Part shown: one piece after another, positions 4,751 to 63,996 of the stretch | Numbering within the stretch: position 1 is the stretch's first letter | Layout: every line of letters begins with the position of its first letter | NCBI GenBank assembly: GCA_029238175.1 | Contig: JAQWGO010000015.1 | Span: forward strand, 1 to 64,000 | DNA: 64,000 nt | From: Henriciella sp. | Lineage (GTDB): Bacteria > Pseudomonadota > Alphaproteobacteria > Caulobacterales > Hyphomonadaceae | Direction: 5' to 3' | The notes under the pieces: generated by a model | Told to the model about the DNA's origin: nothing | What the model saw: the letters and a program-made list of their open reading frames with translations, nothing else | Database searches by the model: none | Translations under genes and position numbers: made by a program

Positions 4751-6220
4751 ATGGGTCAAACCACACTCAATATTCACCCTTCTGCAGGCAAGGGCGGCCC
4801 AACGCCGCCCCCGCCTAAGGACCTTTATGCTAAACGCCAGCAAATCTATCCAAAGCTAGCGCACGGTAATTTCAGGCTGGTGAAATGGGCGGTGATGGCC
4901 GTGACCTTAGGGATCTATTACGTCTTGCCTTGGATTCGCTGGGATCGCGGTGAAGGCATCCCAGACCAAGCCGTTCTTGCTGATTTTCAGAGCGAGAAAT
5001 TCTACTTTTTCTTCATCGAAATTTGGCCGCAGGATATTCATTATCTCGCTGGCCTTTTGATTTTAGCTGCGCTGGGCTTGTTCCTCGTGACCTCCCTATT
5101 GGGGCGGGTCTGGTGCGGCTATACCTGCCCGCAAACGGTTTGGACCGATCTATTCATCTGGGTTGAACGTGCCTTCGAAGGCGACCGCGCGGCTCGGAAA
5201 CGGCTGGATAACCAGCCCATGAGCGTTAACAAACTGGCGCGAAAATTAGGCAAGCATACGGTCTGGCTCATCATCGCTTTCTGGACGGGCGGGGCCTTCA
5301 TTCTGTACTGGCATGACGCGCCAACGATTGCGCGCGGTTGGTTCACAGGGGACGTGCCTTTATCGGCCTATTGGTTTGCTGGCATCCTCACCCTTACAAC
5401 TTACTTTTTAGCTGGTTGGATGCGTGAACAGGTCTGCACCTATATGTGCCCATGGCCGCGCATTCAGGCCGCACTGACAGATGAGCATGCGCTCAACGTC
5501 ACCTATCGCTATGATCGCGGCGAACCTCGCGGTCCTAAGCGCAAAACCGAAAGCTGGGACGAGCGCGGCGACTGTATCGATTGCGACCAGTGCGTACAGG
5601 TTTGCCCAATGGGTATTGATATACGTGACGGTGAACAGCTGGAATGTATCCATTGCGCGCTTTGCATTGATGCGTGCGATCAAATGATGACGAAGATTGA
5701 CCGCCCAACCGGGCTAATCGCTTATGATACTGAGGTCGCGGTTGCTGCGCGCAATGAAGGGACCACGCCGCCAAAGTATCGTCTGATCCGGTCGCGCACA
5801 GTTCTCTATGCCGTCTTGATGATTGCCATTGCCGCTTTGATGACGTGGGGCTTCATGACCAAAGCGACGATTGAAGCAAATGTGCTGAAAGACCGCTCAC
5901 CGCCATATGTGCAGCTTTCAAATGGTAGTATACAAAATGGTTATACGCTAAAATTGATCAACAAAGTCGCTGAACCGCGAACAATGATCGTCAGCATCAC
6001 CGGGCTTGAAGATCTTTCATTCTCAGTCATCGGGTTTGAGCATACCGGCTCACCAACCCAACCGATTGAGCTGCCTGTCGAAGCGTTTGGCGTTGATCGC
6101 TACCGTATTCTCGTCAGCGTTCCTGCAGGCGCAACACAGCGACAAATCACGATCACCGTCACTGACAAAGACAGTGGCGAGGCCGATACAAACCGCGCAT
6201 CCTTTAGAGGACCAAACTGA
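4751..6220 (+). CDS. ccoG: cytochrome c oxidase accessory protein CcoG (RdxA/FixG)
   Basis: GRVWCGYTCPQTVWTDLF, ferredoxin motifs CIDCDQCVQVCPMGIDIR / CIHCALCIDACD. Confidence 0.96.
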   Translation: MGQTTLNIHPSAGKGGPTPPPPKDLYAKRQQIYPKLAHGNFRLVKWAVMAVTLGIYYVLPWIRWDRGEGIPDQAVLADFQSEKFYFFFIEIWPQDIHYLAGLLILAALGLFLVTSLLGRVWCGYTCPQTVWTDLFIWVERAFEGDRAARKRLDNQPMSVNKLARKLGKHTVWLIIAFWTGGAFILYWHDAPTIARGWFTGDVPLSAYWFAGILTLTTYFLAGWMREQVCTYMCPWPRIQAALTDEHALNVTYRYDRGEPRGPKRKTESWDERGDCIDCDQCVQVCPMGIDIRDGEQLECIHCALCIDACDQMMTKIDRPTGLIAYDTEVAVAARNEGTTPPKYRLIRSRTVLYAVLMIAIAALMTWGFMTKATIEANVLKDRSPPYVQLSNGSIQNGYTLKLINKVAEPRTMIVSITGLEDLSFSVIGFEHTGSPTQPIELPVEAFGVDRYRILVSVPAGATQRQITITVTDKDSGEADTNRASFRGPN

Positions 6221-6729
6221 TGACTGATTATGCAATGACATCTGAGACTGAGACATCGCAAAAAAGACTGACCGGATGGCATGTCCTTTTCATCATGCTG
6301 GGCTTCTTCGGCGTGATTTTCGCGGTCAACGGCGTGTTTCTATATCATGCTATAACCAGCTTCCCCGGTGAAGACGTAAAGAAGTCCTATGTTCAAGGCT
6401 TGAACTATAACCAGACCCTCAACGCCCGCGCGGCAGAGGCAGCACTTGGCTGGAAAGCGCAAATGGGCGTTCAAGACGACGCATTGATCGTCCGCTTGCA
6501 GGACGCAGAGGACATGCCGTTAACCGGCTATACTGTTATCGTCGAAGCACGCCGCCTGACCAATGACGCTGAGGATCACGTCCTAACGCTGAACGCCGAA
6601 AGTGAAGGCACATATAGTGTTGCCACTTCCGAACTTAGCGAAGGCCAGTGGCGACTGAAGGCAAGTGTTCTGAATTTCAACGCAGATGAAACACTATTCA
6701 CGGCACACAAACAGGTCCGCATCAAGTGA
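6220..6729 (+). CDS. ccoH: FixH family protein
   Basis: N-terminal TM, position between ccoG and ccoI. Confidence 0.9.
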   Translation: MTDYAMTSETETSQKRLTGWHVLFIMLGFFGVIFAVNGVFLYHAITSFPGEDVKKSYVQGLNYNQTLNARAAEAALGWKAQMGVQDDALIVRLQDAEDMPLTGYTVIVEARRLTNDAEDHVLTLNAESEGTYSVATSELSEGQWRLKASVLNFNADETLFTAHKQVRIK

Positions 6730-58581: not shown

Positions 58582-58788
58582 ATGAAGCGGTCACAACGCA
58601 GACTGGTTGCCAGCATCACTGTCATCTTATTCTTGGTATTCTGGGCGTGGGCAGCCACCACGATTGGTGGATATCTCGCGGACGCCCCGAAATGGCTAAC
58701 AATGATCTATTTCATCGTAGCCGGCATCGGATGGGCACTGCCTTTGAAGCCAGTGTTTGGCTGGATGAACTCTGGACCAGAAGAATAA
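58582..58788 (+). CDS. DUF2842 domain-containing protein
   Basis: 68 aa, two TMs, ends YFIVAGIGWALPLKPVFGWMN. Confidence 0.88.
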   Translation: MKRSQRRLVASITVILFLVFWAWAATTIGGYLADAPKWLTMIYFIVAGIGWALPLKPVFGWMNSGPEE

Positions 58789-59028
58789 ATTTATCGAAAT
58801 TCGGCTAAAAGTTGAATTCTACCTTGCGTTGCGCTGTGTTTTATGCGACTAAAAATCACAAGCATTTATTGGTGGTTCAGCGATTCTTTGCACCACTTCT
58901 GATAGGTAGATAAAATTTCATCTATCCATTTAGGAACAAATAAATCCCAATTTTCTACTTCTGATTGCGTTCCAAGGCTGATGGTGGCTCGAGGGACACC
59001 AAAAAACTATCAATCAGAAAGATCGAAA

Positions 59029-59475
59029 AAAATGAAAAACCTCAAAATCCTCGCAATGGCTTCTGCCGCCGCTCTTCTTGCCGCTCCAGCTTTCGCTGCT
59101 GATGCGAGCTCTACAGCGGGTGCTGATATTATTGCGCCGCTTCAGGTCAGCAACACTGCACCATTGTACTTCGGTACAATCGCACCGAGCACGACTGCTA
59201 GCGACACAGTTATCGTAAACGCAGCAGGCGCCAAAACTTGTGGTTCTGAACTAACATGTTTGACAACTGATCACACTGCAGCGGCATTCGATGTTGCTGG
59301 CGAGGCTGACTATTCTTACGCAATCACGCTTCCGTCTTCTGTGAACATCTCAAACGGTTCTGGTGGTACGATGGCTGTGAACAACTTCACTGTCGGTGGC
59401 ACACTGACTGTTGCTGCGAACCAAGCGTCTGGTGAGTACACAGGTACTTTCGCAATCACTGTTGAGTATCAGTAG
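59029..59475 (+). CDS. DUF4402 domain-containing exported protein (putative major fibre subunit)
   Basis: Signal peptide ...AAPAFAADA; LYFGTIAPSTTASDTVIV; CGSELTC; C-terminal YTGTFAITVEYQ. Confidence 0.88.
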   Translation, partial: KMKNLKILAMASAAALLAAPAFAADASSTAGADIIAPLQVSNTAPLYFGTIAPSTTASDTVIVNAAGAKTCGSELTCLTTDHTAAAFDVAGEADYSYAITLPSSVNISNGSGGTMAVNNFTVGGTLTVAANQASGEYTGTFAITVEYQ

Positions 59476-59486
59476 GCATCCCCCCG

Positions 59487-59512
59487 GTTCCGGCGGGCTC
59501 ACCCGCCGGAGC
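59487..59512 (+). promoter_or_regulatory. Strong intercistronic stem-loop
   Basis: GTTCCGGCGGG-CTCA-CCCGCCGGAGC; 11 pairs including one G-U; no adjacent U-tract. Confidence 0.7.
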
Positions 59513-59546
59513 ACCCTTTATCTTATCAAGTTTCAAGGAGGCTGGG

Positions 59547-60122
59547 ATGCCCATTACAATTAAGCCTCTATCGGCCCTTATCTTGGCCTTGGCATTATCC
59601 GCACCGGCAGCCTTCGCTCAAGTTGGCGATGACGATATTGGCGGCGGCGGTGCTGACCCTGATTTCATCGGCAATACTGGCACAATCATTATTAACGGCC
59701 TCGGTATCACAAACTATCAAGATCTCTATTTCGGCGTTATCGCACCAAGCATGACAGAATTTGGCGTCGTCCAAGTCAAACGTGGTAGCAACAACAACTC
59801 TGTTTGTGACGCTAATCTGGTTTGCCTGCAAAATGGCACACGCGCCCGTTATAAAGTGATCGGGACGCCCCGTCTTTACATCAACATATCTGACCCGGGC
59901 TCAATCACCGTTAGTGATGGCTCCGGAAACACGATGACCGTCGACTCCTTCTCCGGCGCAGGTAGCGGAAACGATACCGCTTGGCGCGGCTGGCAACGTC
60001 TGCGTTCAACCGGAATTTCACGCTTCAACGTTGGCGCAAACTTGCACGTGAAACCGAACCAGCCCCCGGCCATTATACGGGGACATTTGTTGTCTCTGTT
60101 GACTATCAGTAATCCCAAATAG
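59547..60122 (+). CDS. DUF4402 domain-containing exported protein, C-terminus apparently frameshifted
   Basis: LYFGVIAPSMTEFGVVQV, CDANLVC parallel to the upstream paralogue; the expected GHYTGTFVVSVDYQ* lies in another frame after the CCCCC run 60063-60067 (stop 60110-60112). Confidence 0.8.
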   Translation: MPITIKPLSALILALALSAPAAFAQVGDDDIGGGGADPDFIGNTGTIIINGLGITNYQDLYFGVIAPSMTEFGVVQVKRGSNNNSVCDANLVCLQNGTRARYKVIGTPRLYINISDPGSITVSDGSGNTMTVDSFSGAGSGNDTAWRGWQRLRSTGISRFNVGANLHVKPNQPPAIIRGHLLSLLTISNPK

Positions 60123-60132
60123 GACGCTTAGA

Positions 60133-60960
60133 ATGCTTCGGACCCTTACAGCTCTTGCCATAATGGCTTCTGCTCAATTCGCTCTGCCCACGCCCGCCTC
60201 CGCAGAGCTACTGATCGCGCCAACCCGTGTTGTGCTTGATCGCAGTGACCGCTCAACCGAACTGGTCGTGGTCAATAAAGGGGCCGAAGAAGCAGCTTTC
60301 AGAATTAGCATCGAAAACCGCCGGATGAACCTTGATGGCTCCATGGAAGAGGTCACTGAAGCGATCGATGACGAGCTGTTTGCCAAGGACTTTATCCGCT
60401 ACTCCCCGCGCCGCATCGTTCTAAAGCCCGGAGAGCGCCAAACCGTTCGTGTTTCAGCGCGCTTAAACGGCGACATGGCAGAAGGCGAGTACCGCTCCCA
60501 CCTTCGCCTTCAAGGCGCACCGCTCAGTGCTGGCCGAACCCTCCAAAGCGCGACGTCCACCGACAGCGGCGACCTATCCATCCAACTGATCGCGATACGT
60601 TCAATCACAATCCCGGTCATCATGCGCCTTGGCCAACTTGACGCCGATGTCGATATTGAAAGCATCAATCTTCAAGAGAATGATGCCGAAGACGAAACAC
60701 TTCTTGTTGCCCGCATGACCAGAACGGGCAGCCGCTCAACCTATGGCGATATCAAAATATATGCGCCGGATCAGGTCGAGCCTGTCTACTTTGCCAGAGG
60801 TATTGCGCTCTACACTCCCAATACGGAACGCGACCTTATTTTACCGCTACCGAGTGAACTTCGCGCCGCCCTAACGGGTAAAGACATTCGCATTGAATAT
60901 GTCTCATCCGACCCGCAAGCGCCCGGCGTCATTGCAAACCTAACGACGCGCCTGCCGTAA
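60133..60960 (+). CDS. Periplasmic fimbrial/pilus chaperone (PapD-like)
   Basis: Signal peptide; ELLIAPTRVVLDRSDRSTELVVVNKGAEEAAFRISIENRRM...RYSPRRIVLKPGERQTVRVSAR. Confidence 0.85.
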   Translation: MLRTLTALAIMASAQFALPTPASAELLIAPTRVVLDRSDRSTELVVVNKGAEEAAFRISIENRRMNLDGSMEEVTEAIDDELFAKDFIRYSPRRIVLKPGERQTVRVSARLNGDMAEGEYRSHLRLQGAPLSAGRTLQSATSTDSGDLSIQLIAIRSITIPVIMRLGQLDADVDIESINLQENDAEDETLLVARMTRTGSRSTYGDIKIYAPDQVEPVYFARGIALYTPNTERDLILPLPSELRAALTGKDIRIEYVSSDPQAPGVIANLTTRLP

Positions 60961-60987
60961 CCACACCCTCTCCTGAAAGCGATACTG

Positions 60988-63660
60988 ATGCGATCCCTCC
61001 TGCTCGCCACACTCGGACTGTATCTGTCCTTCAGTGCCAGCGCGCAGGAGGCCGATCCATTCGACATCCTATTTGGCGGTGCAGACACCGTACAGACAAG
61101 CACATCCGATCAAACCGGACAGGATGACCTCAGTATTGTCCGCGTGCGCTTGCGAAAGTTCACATTGAACAATTCCGTTCCTGCCTACGATACTGAAGCC
61201 GGGCTTTGCCTGCCACTTCAAACAATCGTCGATGCGTTAGAGTTTCCCGTTAAAGTCGACGGTGATCGCGTCTCAGGTTGGTTTATCTCTAGCGATCAAA
61301 AGGTGGACATCAATCTGATGGACCAAGGCGGCGATTTTGCGAAAACTGCTGATGGATGGTGCGCCACCCTCGGCGCATTAAACACCTTGTTCAACTTCGA
61401 TATTTCTTACGATCAACGCACGCTGGATGTGGATATCACGCCAAGCGCAATCCTTCCGATTGAAGCACGGCTAGAACGAGAAGCCATTCGCGACGAAATG
61501 GAAAGAACAGGCAACGTTTCACGTCCAGATTATCAGTTCGTCGAAAACCCATATCGCTGGCTAAGTGTCCCGGTCGGAGATTTTGGGCTTGAGGTGAATT
61601 CCAACTCCGGAGGCAAAGCCGAAGCCCGAGCATCAATCGAACTAGCTGGCGACGTCCTAAAAACCACGGGCCGATTACGCTCAGTCTCCGGCACTGAAAA
61701 GATGTTAGACGGGCTACGGCTCACCTTTGATCGCGGCAACGCGAAAGGGACAGATCTCGGCCCTCTCAAAGCGAAACAAATGGCGTTCGGGGATATCTCC
61801 GCGCCCTCCATGCCGCTCATATCGAAAGGCACCAACGGCGCTGGCGTGATTATCTCCAACAAATCTGCTTTGGCAGCCGACCTCTTCGACACAACCGAAA
61901 TTCGCGGGCCATTGCGGGAAGGCTGGGAAGCGGAGCTGTATGATGCCGGACAACTCGTCGCTTTCGTTACCAAGCCTGATAGCAATGGCGACTATGTGTT
62001 CGATCAAGTCACACTGCGCCCCGGCTTCAACCGTTTTGAAGTACGCTTATTCGGCCCGTATGGCGAAACCGAAACACGTAGCGTCAGCTACATGATCGGC
62101 TCTGAACTTAATCCTGAAAACGAAACCACTTACACATTGGGCGTCATCAATAATAGCCGCACTCTATTCGGTGAATTGCTAGAGGAAAACACATCCGAAG
62201 AAGACCTTATAACCCTGCCAGAGGCGGGCCCACGCGCGTTTGCAACGCTTGCCCACGGACTGACGGACCGGCTAACATTTCGTTTGGACGGCCAAGGGGA
62301 ACTGGGTGAAATTAGCGCCCTTACAAGCAGTCTTCTCTACGCCGCTGACAGATCCTACGCCGCAATCCGGCTCGCGTCAGATGGCGGCCCTTCAACGGCG
62401 GTGCAGGCGTCCTACCAAAGGCGCATCGGCGAACGCAGCAGCTTTTCTGTAAACGCTGTTGACTATGGCGCGCTGGAGAACACCGTCACAGGCCTAGGTG
62501 CAAACCGCCTACAACGCGGCGCGAACATCCGCTTGGATACGATGCTCACAAATTCTCGTTTCGATTTACCCCTTCAAGGACAACTGCGATGGCGAGAGTT
62601 AGAGTCAGGCCTTCAAAGCCTTGACTTACTTGGCCGGATTTCCGGCGCGCTGCGGGTCTATCGATGGACGAATACGCTGCGCTATTCACAAACAAAAAGC
62701 GGTGGCAGCAATTCGCAGTCGCTTGAAGGTGAGTTCTTGGCCGCACGCTCCATCCGAAAGCTCCGCGTAAGGTCTAGCCTGACATATGACATGACCAATG
62801 GCTTTGAGCCGACAGGTGCGCTCGTGGGAATACAGCGATCCATGGAGGGCGGCAGCTCCGCTCAACTCAACGTCTCGCACGACTTCAAAAGCGGCGGCAC
62901 CAACAGCCAAGCCAGTTGGTCTAAGCAGTTTGAAAAGTTCGCGCTGTCTGCCAACGCAAACCTTACCGATCAGGGGACATGGTCAACTGGGTTGAGGCTA
63001 TCTTTCGCGCTGTTCAGAGACAAGGATCGCGGCAAAATCGGCCTCGCAGCACCGGGCCTCAGCCGCTCTGGCACCATACGCCAGCATGTCTTTCACGACC
63101 TCAACGCGAATGGCCAGTTCGACGCCGGCGAACCGGGCATAAAAGGCGCGCAGTTCATTGTCGGGAACTCTCTGCGCTCTGAAACAACTGATGCGAACGG
63201 TTTTGTCGTTCTATCAGGACTGCCAGCAGGATCAGACATTGATGTCGAATTTCAGATGGCCAGCCTCGACGACCCGTTTTTACGCCCGCTCTTCATTGGC
63301 CGAAAAACAATCGTCAGGCCCGGACAAGTTGTTGAGATTTCAACACCCATTCAGTCAACCGGAGAAGCCGAAGGCATACTGCTTGTGCAAAACGGCGAGC
63401 ACAAAACCCCGGTGGCGGGTGTGACAGTGGAATTTGTCGACGCGATAGGACAGGTCACCGCGACCACCGTCACCGAATTTGACGGCTATTTTTATGCCGA
63501 TGGTTTGCCAATGGATGACCTAACAATGCGGGTAAGCGAAAAAGCCCTCAACGCCACGAACACCTATGCCGCAGAACAATCGCTCCGCCTCACGATTGAT
63601 GAGCCATCCGTGTTTGGGTTGAGCCTTCTAGTCATCCCAAATGGCGAAGCCGCAAGCTAG
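60988..63660 (+). CDS. Atypical fimbrial outer-membrane usher with C-terminal SdrD/CarboxypepD-like domains
   Basis: 890 aa; signal peptide; usher-like middle (DLFDTTEIRGPLREGWEAELYDAGQLVAFVTKPDSNGDYVFDQVTLRPGFNRFEVRLFGPYGETE); C-terminal HVFHDLNANGQFDAGEPGIKGAQFIVGNSLRSETTDANGFVVLSGLP. Confidence 0.8.
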   Translation: MRSLLLATLGLYLSFSASAQEADPFDILFGGADTVQTSTSDQTGQDDLSIVRVRLRKFTLNNSVPAYDTEAGLCLPLQTIVDALEFPVKVDGDRVSGWFISSDQKVDINLMDQGGDFAKTADGWCATLGALNTLFNFDISYDQRTLDVDITPSAILPIEARLEREAIRDEMERTGNVSRPDYQFVENPYRWLSVPVGDFGLEVNSNSGGKAEARASIELAGDVLKTTGRLRSVSGTEKMLDGLRLTFDRGNAKGTDLGPLKAKQMAFGDISAPSMPLISKGTNGAGVIISNKSALAADLFDTTEIRGPLREGWEAELYDAGQLVAFVTKPDSNGDYVFDQVTLRPGFNRFEVRLFGPYGETETRSVSYMIGSELNPENETTYTLGVINNSRTLFGELLEENTSEEDLITLPEAGPRAFATLAHGLTDRLTFRLDGQGELGEISALTSSLLYAADRSYAAIRLASDGGPSTAVQASYQRRIGERSSFSVNAVDYGALENTVTGLGANRLQRGANIRLDTMLTNSRFDLPLQGQLRWRELESGLQSLDLLGRISGALRVYRWTNTLRYSQTKSGGSNSQSLEGEFLAARSIRKLRVRSSLTYDMTNGFEPTGALVGIQRSMEGGSSAQLNVSHDFKSGGTNSQASWSKQFEKFALSANANLTDQGTWSTGLRLSFALFRDKDRGKIGLAAPGLSRSGTIRQHVFHDLNANGQFDAGEPGIKGAQFIVGNSLRSETTDANGFVVLSGLPAGSDIDVEFQMASLDDPFLRPLFIGRKTIVRPGQVVEISTPIQSTGEAEGILLVQNGEHKTPVAGVTVEFVDAIGQVTATTVTEFDGYFYADGLPMDDLTMRVSEKALNATNTYAAEQSLRLTIDEPSVFGLSLLVIPNGEAAS

Positions 63661-63666
63661 CGAAAG

Positions 63667-63996
63667 TTAGTCGTCACCCTCATAGGTTTTCCGCGCTTCC
63701 TTGCGCAGGCGCTCAAACATTTGAGACACGTCTTCTTCCTCGCCTTCATCTGCAACGTCCGCAGATGATACAGCTCCAGCGATCTTCTCTAGTGTCAGGG
63801 CATCTTCAGCGTCATTTGGTGTTGGCGTCTCGATCGTTTCAACCACTGTCTCTTGAACAGGTGCCGCTTGCACAGGATTTGCAGCCATTGGCGGCGCAGC
63901 CTCTTCAACATCCCGGTCAAACAGGTGCTCTGCCAGCCCACCAAACCGGCCTAGAACCGTCTCTGACCCAATCAGTGTCTGACCCACTGCAGGCAT
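63667..63996 (-). CDS. Acidic hypothetical protein, probably truncated by the window edge
   Basis: ORF open toward the edge; ends VSQMFERLRKEARKTYEGDD; the true start may lie outside. Confidence 0.55.
   Translation of the reverse strand: MPAVGQTLIGSETVLGRFGGLAEHLFDRDVEEAAPPMAANPVQAAPVQETVVETIETPTPNDAEDALTLEKIAGAVSSADVADEGEEEDVSQMFERLRKEARKTYEGDD

Follow-up and report, generated by a model that had tools for sequence, protein, structure and literature searches.

What do four neighbouring genes of a Henriciella sp. genome, two of them coding for proteins of the DUF4402 family, build at the cell surface, and do they belong to a known chaperone-usher system? The genes lie in a stretch of 64,000 nucleotides (contig JAQWGO010000015.1, positions 1 to 64,000 of the forward strand), hereafter called the window. 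We consider it very probable that they form a self-contained chaperone-usher cassette which builds a DUF4402 surface fibre, with an usher lineage distinct from the three known ones (classical, archaic, alternative).

Gene order and state of the window copy

Subunit A, subunit B, a chaperone and an 890-aa protein are encoded one after the other on the + strand, at 59032-63660 (Table 1), and this gene order is far above chance expectation. The preliminary description of four consecutive same-strand exported proteins was confirmed, except that it had the locus begin at 59029; subunit A is taken here to start at 59032, at the first ATG followed by a signal peptide. The base composition of the cassette is unremarkable (G+C 54.1% vs 53.6%), and sigma-70 promoters and T-run terminators did not occur above chance frequency. 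The hairpin between A and B could possibly act as a transcript-end or attenuator element that raises A over B. Its signal is weak and not consistently significant: just 29% of the relatives reach z below -2.

Table 1. Features of the DUF4402 chaperone-usher locus, in window coordinates.
Feature	Position	Strand	Basis
Subunit A, probable main subunit of the fibre; exported, DUF4402, 147 aa	59032..59475	+	PF14352, E 1.7e-27; signal peptide 1-22
Putative N-terminal donor-strand extension of subunit A	59098..59139	+	Low-confidence, strand-free N-terminus of the model; analogy with SCPU pilins
A-B intergenic G+C-rich hairpin, 11-bp	59487..59512	+	71-nt intergenic region folds at -28.9, z about -2.2
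Subunit B, exported, DUF4402; frameshifted 191-aa ORF	59547..60122	+	PF14352, E 1.7e-16
PapD-like periplasmic chaperone, 275 aa	60133..60960	+	PapD_N, E 9e-4; hhalign to archaic chaperones
Chaperone strand SIQLIAIRSITIPVI with alternating hydrophobic residues, probable G1 donor	60577..60621	+	Conserved in relatives; role by PapD-like analogy
Outer-membrane usher, 890 aa	60988..63660	+	AF2 pLDDT 85.9; Foldseek to FimD/PapC
Usher N-terminal domain, aa 47-152	61126..61443	+	DSSP of the model; Cu_amine_oxidN1-like in some relatives, not PapC_N
Usher beta-barrel, aa 196-678, 6 + 18 strands around the plug	61573..63021	+	DSSP; aa 361-370 counted with the plug
Usher plug domain, aa 302-370, between barrel strands 6 and 7	61891..62097	+	Model; hhalign against FimD
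Usher C-terminal domain 1, aa 695-790, SdrD_B-like	63070..63357	+	PF17210, E 1.1e-12; aligns with C-terminal domains of classical ushers
Usher C-terminal domain 2, aa 794-885, CarboxypepD_reg/transthyretin-like	63367..63642	+	PF13620, E 7.6e-7; model

Both subunit genes of the window deviate from their relatives. In subunit B, the reading frame is lost near a run of C (60063-60067), just before the last beta-strand, and the missing end, GHYTGTFVVSVDYQ followed by the stop, is encoded in another frame (60068-60112); the relatives in the loci L011 and L153 are intact. Subunit A lacks about 20 residues that its closest relatives have, apparently in a loop between two strands. These changes may reflect decay, phase variation or assembly errors. 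It is conceivable, though on balance doubtful, that the machinery is real in relatives while the window copy is decaying and makes no normal fibre. Besides the two altered subunits, an orphan DUF4402 gene in another part of the genome, with an apparently incomplete signal peptide, would fit such decay. Nonetheless, the reading frames of the chaperone and the usher are fully open, the stretch missing from subunit A resembles a loop, and a frameshift in a run of C can equally be an assembly error, in a genome of 181 contigs, or a phase-variable site.

Strong usher matches within the genus were confined to the window genome and one other Henriciella genome (G022). In five other genomes of the genus the site is empty: a small gene of the left flank lies 31-54 bases from the homologue of the right-flank gene (aligned ends). 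Gain or loss therefore concerned the cassette as a whole. The corresponding region in the window is 58788-63667, between convergent genes, and in G022 the cassette is found on a different contig from the neighbourhood of the empty site.

Relationships and predicted folds of the usher, chaperone and subunits

Standard domain models say little about the 890-aa protein. At E<=1 it gave no match to the usher-family models of Pfam (PF00577, PapC_N, PapC_C, CooC_C); SdrD_B and CarboxypepD_reg-type domains, at the protein end, are all that was recognised, and a Pfam search of its own genome found no PF00577. Among 23 usher relatives, PF00577 was weakly matched in two, TcfC in one (E 0.046) and PF07833 (Cu_amine_oxidN1) in five. 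On annotated plasmids, the usher relatives carry NCBI names such as 'carboxypeptidase regulatory-like domain-containing protein', 'carboxypeptidase-like regulatory domain-containing protein' and 'SdrD B-like domain-containing protein', and the chaperone relatives are called 'molecular chaperone', 'fimbria/pilus periplasmic chaperone' or 'hypothetical protein'. Given these gene names and the missing usher-model matches, the system is hidden from standard annotation.

Structure prediction gives a clearer picture. The AlphaFold model of the protein (57-sequence alignment, pLDDT 85.9) proceeds from a small N-terminal domain through six long barrel strands, an insert at aa 302-370 and 18 further strands to two C-terminal beta domains. 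A naive DSSP count yields 25 barrel strands; it becomes 24 when aa 361-370 are assigned to the plug, as we did because hhalign aligns these residues to the final part of the FimD plug. The plug of FimD and PapC likewise sits after barrel strand six. When the model was searched against the PDB with Foldseek, all 18 best matches were FimD or PapC, the top one being 3rfz_B (E 1.9e-30, 903 columns). We identify the 890-aa protein as an usher with a predicted plugged 24-strand barrel and N- and C-terminal periplasmic domains. This bears out its first description as usher-like, against which the absence of a 24-strand barrel would have spoken.

The chaperone had been described as PapD-like, and profile comparison agrees. 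In the window protein PapD_N stays below the Pfam cut-off, and it is matched in 20 of 22 relatives; hhalign places the protein nearest to archaic chaperones (97.2%, E 4.6e-11), followed by alternative (96.1%) and classical ones (85%).

Both subunits match Pfam DUF4402 (Table 1), and each has one CX5C pair and the IAPS motif noted earlier, the latter as FG-x-IAPS. These are traits of a branch comprising Hyphomonadaceae, Parvularculaceae and Erythrobacter rather than of the whole family; CX5C occurs in 16/70 subunits. Subunit A is 76% identical to its counterpart in G022, and its AF2 model is all-beta (pLDDT 88.5), apart from an N-terminal end of roughly 36 residues, signal peptide included, that has no strand. 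By analogy with known pilins, this end might serve as a donor-strand extension. Foldseek matches of the model in the PDB were statistically insignificant (best E 0.9); many among the top 50 were chaperone-usher pilins (Saf, Pap, Fim, Csu), with Csu chains giving the highest TM-scores among the matches listed. The DUF4402 and SCPU profiles matched at 96.5% (E 7e-10) in the 55 C-terminal columns only, and both families carry the FG motif as well as a terminal strand with GxYxxT (GxYxGT/GxYxDT). These resemblances weakly support the view that DUF4402 is a pilin-like domain with an Ig-like, complementable fold. SCPU itself (PF05229) was absent from the window proteins, the genome they come from and 70 relatives.

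Two further DUF4402 genes deserve mention. The orphan of the window genome (L010 9606-10163; G000:C65:26788-27156) is 45% identical to subunit A and has no chaperone or usher nearby. In the closest relative, Henriciella L011, a third DUF4402 gene (6005-6502) lies directly 3' of the usher, a position where the window has none; it is a candidate tip or accessory subunit.

Place among chaperone-usher families

Three usher families are distinguished, the classical, the alternative and the archaic (PMC4654587; PMC9238391), and the archaic one is the known family that has been reported in alphaproteobacteria (PMC4654587). For comparison, archaic ushers were taken from alphaproteobacteria and classical ones from E. 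coli K-12; alternative ones were found via CooC_C plus EcpC. In an unrooted tree with long branches (27 DUF4402-type, 7 alternative, 5 archaic and 5 classical ushers), each family formed one clade at bootstrap 100; the DUF4402-type ushers were monophyletic (100/99) and sat on a long inner branch (1.46). Comparison of single sequences with FimD or FimC by hhalign was uninformative, and multi-sequence profiles were needed. With these, the DUF4402-type usher is about equally distant from archaic (E 2e-10), alternative (96.6%, E 6e-10) and classical ushers (96.5%, E 9e-10), and the known families are closer to each other (archaic-classical 3e-45, alternative-classical 4e-18, alternative-archaic 4e-13). 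A similarity to EcpC was dropped after its apparent 42% fell to 2.5% in a deeper alignment.

Each known family resembles the cassette in some respects and differs in others. The classical ushers FimD and PapC provide the best full-length structural matches and share the plugged barrel, but in the window PF00577, PapC_N, PapC_C and Fimbrial domains are not matched at E<=1, and the cassette has no separate adhesin gene. Alternative (alpha) systems of the EcpC/CooC type have a homologous usher and a homologous chaperone; the DUF4402-type usher, however, has no CooC_C (PF15976) match and no significant TcfC (PF16967) match, and it forms a separate clade. Archaic (sigma) Csu/SCPU pili follow the same logic of usher, chaperone and small subunits.

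Could the cassette be a fast-evolving archaic offshoot, in which SCPU diverged to DUF4402 and no separate family is needed? The archaic profile is the one nearest to the window chaperone, SCPU and DUF4402 share C-terminal motifs and a partial profile match, and both occur in alphaproteobacteria, where the archaic family is the one already reported. The usher points elsewhere: it lies outside the archaic clade, archaic and classical ushers group without the DUF4402-type at 100/97, archaic ushers are far nearer to classical ones than to it, and its terminal domains and its subunits are different. Moreover, none of the 11 SCPU-positive genomes of the class is among those with a DUF4402-type usher. 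We regard an archaic origin of this kind as improbable.

We lean, with some reserve, towards a fourth, previously undescribed chaperone-usher family that is deeply separate from the three known ones, has DUF4402 for a pilin domain and escapes present-day usher annotation. The preliminary description had suggested a poorly characterised assembly class in which DUF4402 replaces the canonical subunits, and had asked whether the locus might fall in a clade already characterised; both the tree and the hhalign distances place its usher outside the known clades. A search limited to open-licence PMC articles, in which a control DUF term turned up once, found no paper naming DUF4402; this is weak evidence of novelty. 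If a fourth usher family exists, present in roughly 7% of the alphaproteobacterial genomes sampled (23/337) and also in other phyla, the diversity of bacterial fibres would be wider than the three families suggest. DUF4402 (PF14352), a family without an assigned function and tied here to an usher, would gain one, and a small two-subunit system would become available together with a possible outgroup for the evolution of usher assembly.

Spread of the cassette and proposed mode of assembly

A contig scan with the window usher as query gave zero matches, and a scan with the chaperone alignment worked: it yielded 70 named loci, distributed over Alpha-, Beta- and Gammaproteobacteria, Myxococcota, Krumholzibacteriota and Eiseniibacteriota. 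A DUF4402-type usher adjoins the chaperone in 67 of them. The neighbourhood survey proposed at the outset thus found a recurring unit, since the full cassette, with one to three DUF4402 genes directly upstream of chaperone and usher, is present in 62/70 loci, most of the others being truncated at contig ends. All 70 subunits used for the profile contain DUF4402, a figure that is partly built in, as they were picked beside the chaperone with the DUF4402 model. In 200 genomes of the order, DUF4402 was found in 13 and the usher in 13/13 of those (Fisher p 1.6e-19, assuming that at most 14 genomes of the sample carry the usher). Overall, the usher is present in 23/348 genomes of the order and in 23/337 of the class, a few matches being partial or weak.

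Assembly could be comparable to that of other chaperone-usher fibres. The Sec pathway would most likely export all four proteins. In the periplasm, the PapD-like chaperone would lend a strand, probably SIQLIAIRSITIPVI, to each DUF4402 subunit and hold it; the usher would then take up the chaperone-subunit complex, where the strand of the chaperone could be swapped for the N-terminal extension of the next subunit, and the fibre would leave through the plugged usher pore. Subunit A is the probable main subunit and would be the repeated unit, with subunit B as a minor unit at the tip or the base; its placement at the tip is a guess.

A surface coat or short oligomers of DUF4402, instead of a long fibre, might be suspected from the presence of one to three small subunits, often just one or two, and from the lack of a conserved downstream adhesin, but we find this unlikely given that both subunits have an N-terminal extension and that some established chaperone-usher fibres, e.g. 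Caf1, are built of very few subunits.

The tip adhesin gene missing from the first description of the window is missing more generally: across the loci, no conserved downstream adhesin was found, and the neighbours form small unrelated groups. A chaperone relative on a contig labelled Euryarchaeota archaeon (L144), with no usher found nearby, possibly reflects mis-binning of that contig. Downstream neighbours include a flavoprotein in Massilia and, directly 3' of the usher in three loci, a response regulator (L093 9918-10535, L153 11398-12021 and L130 11354-13000), which may control the cassette.
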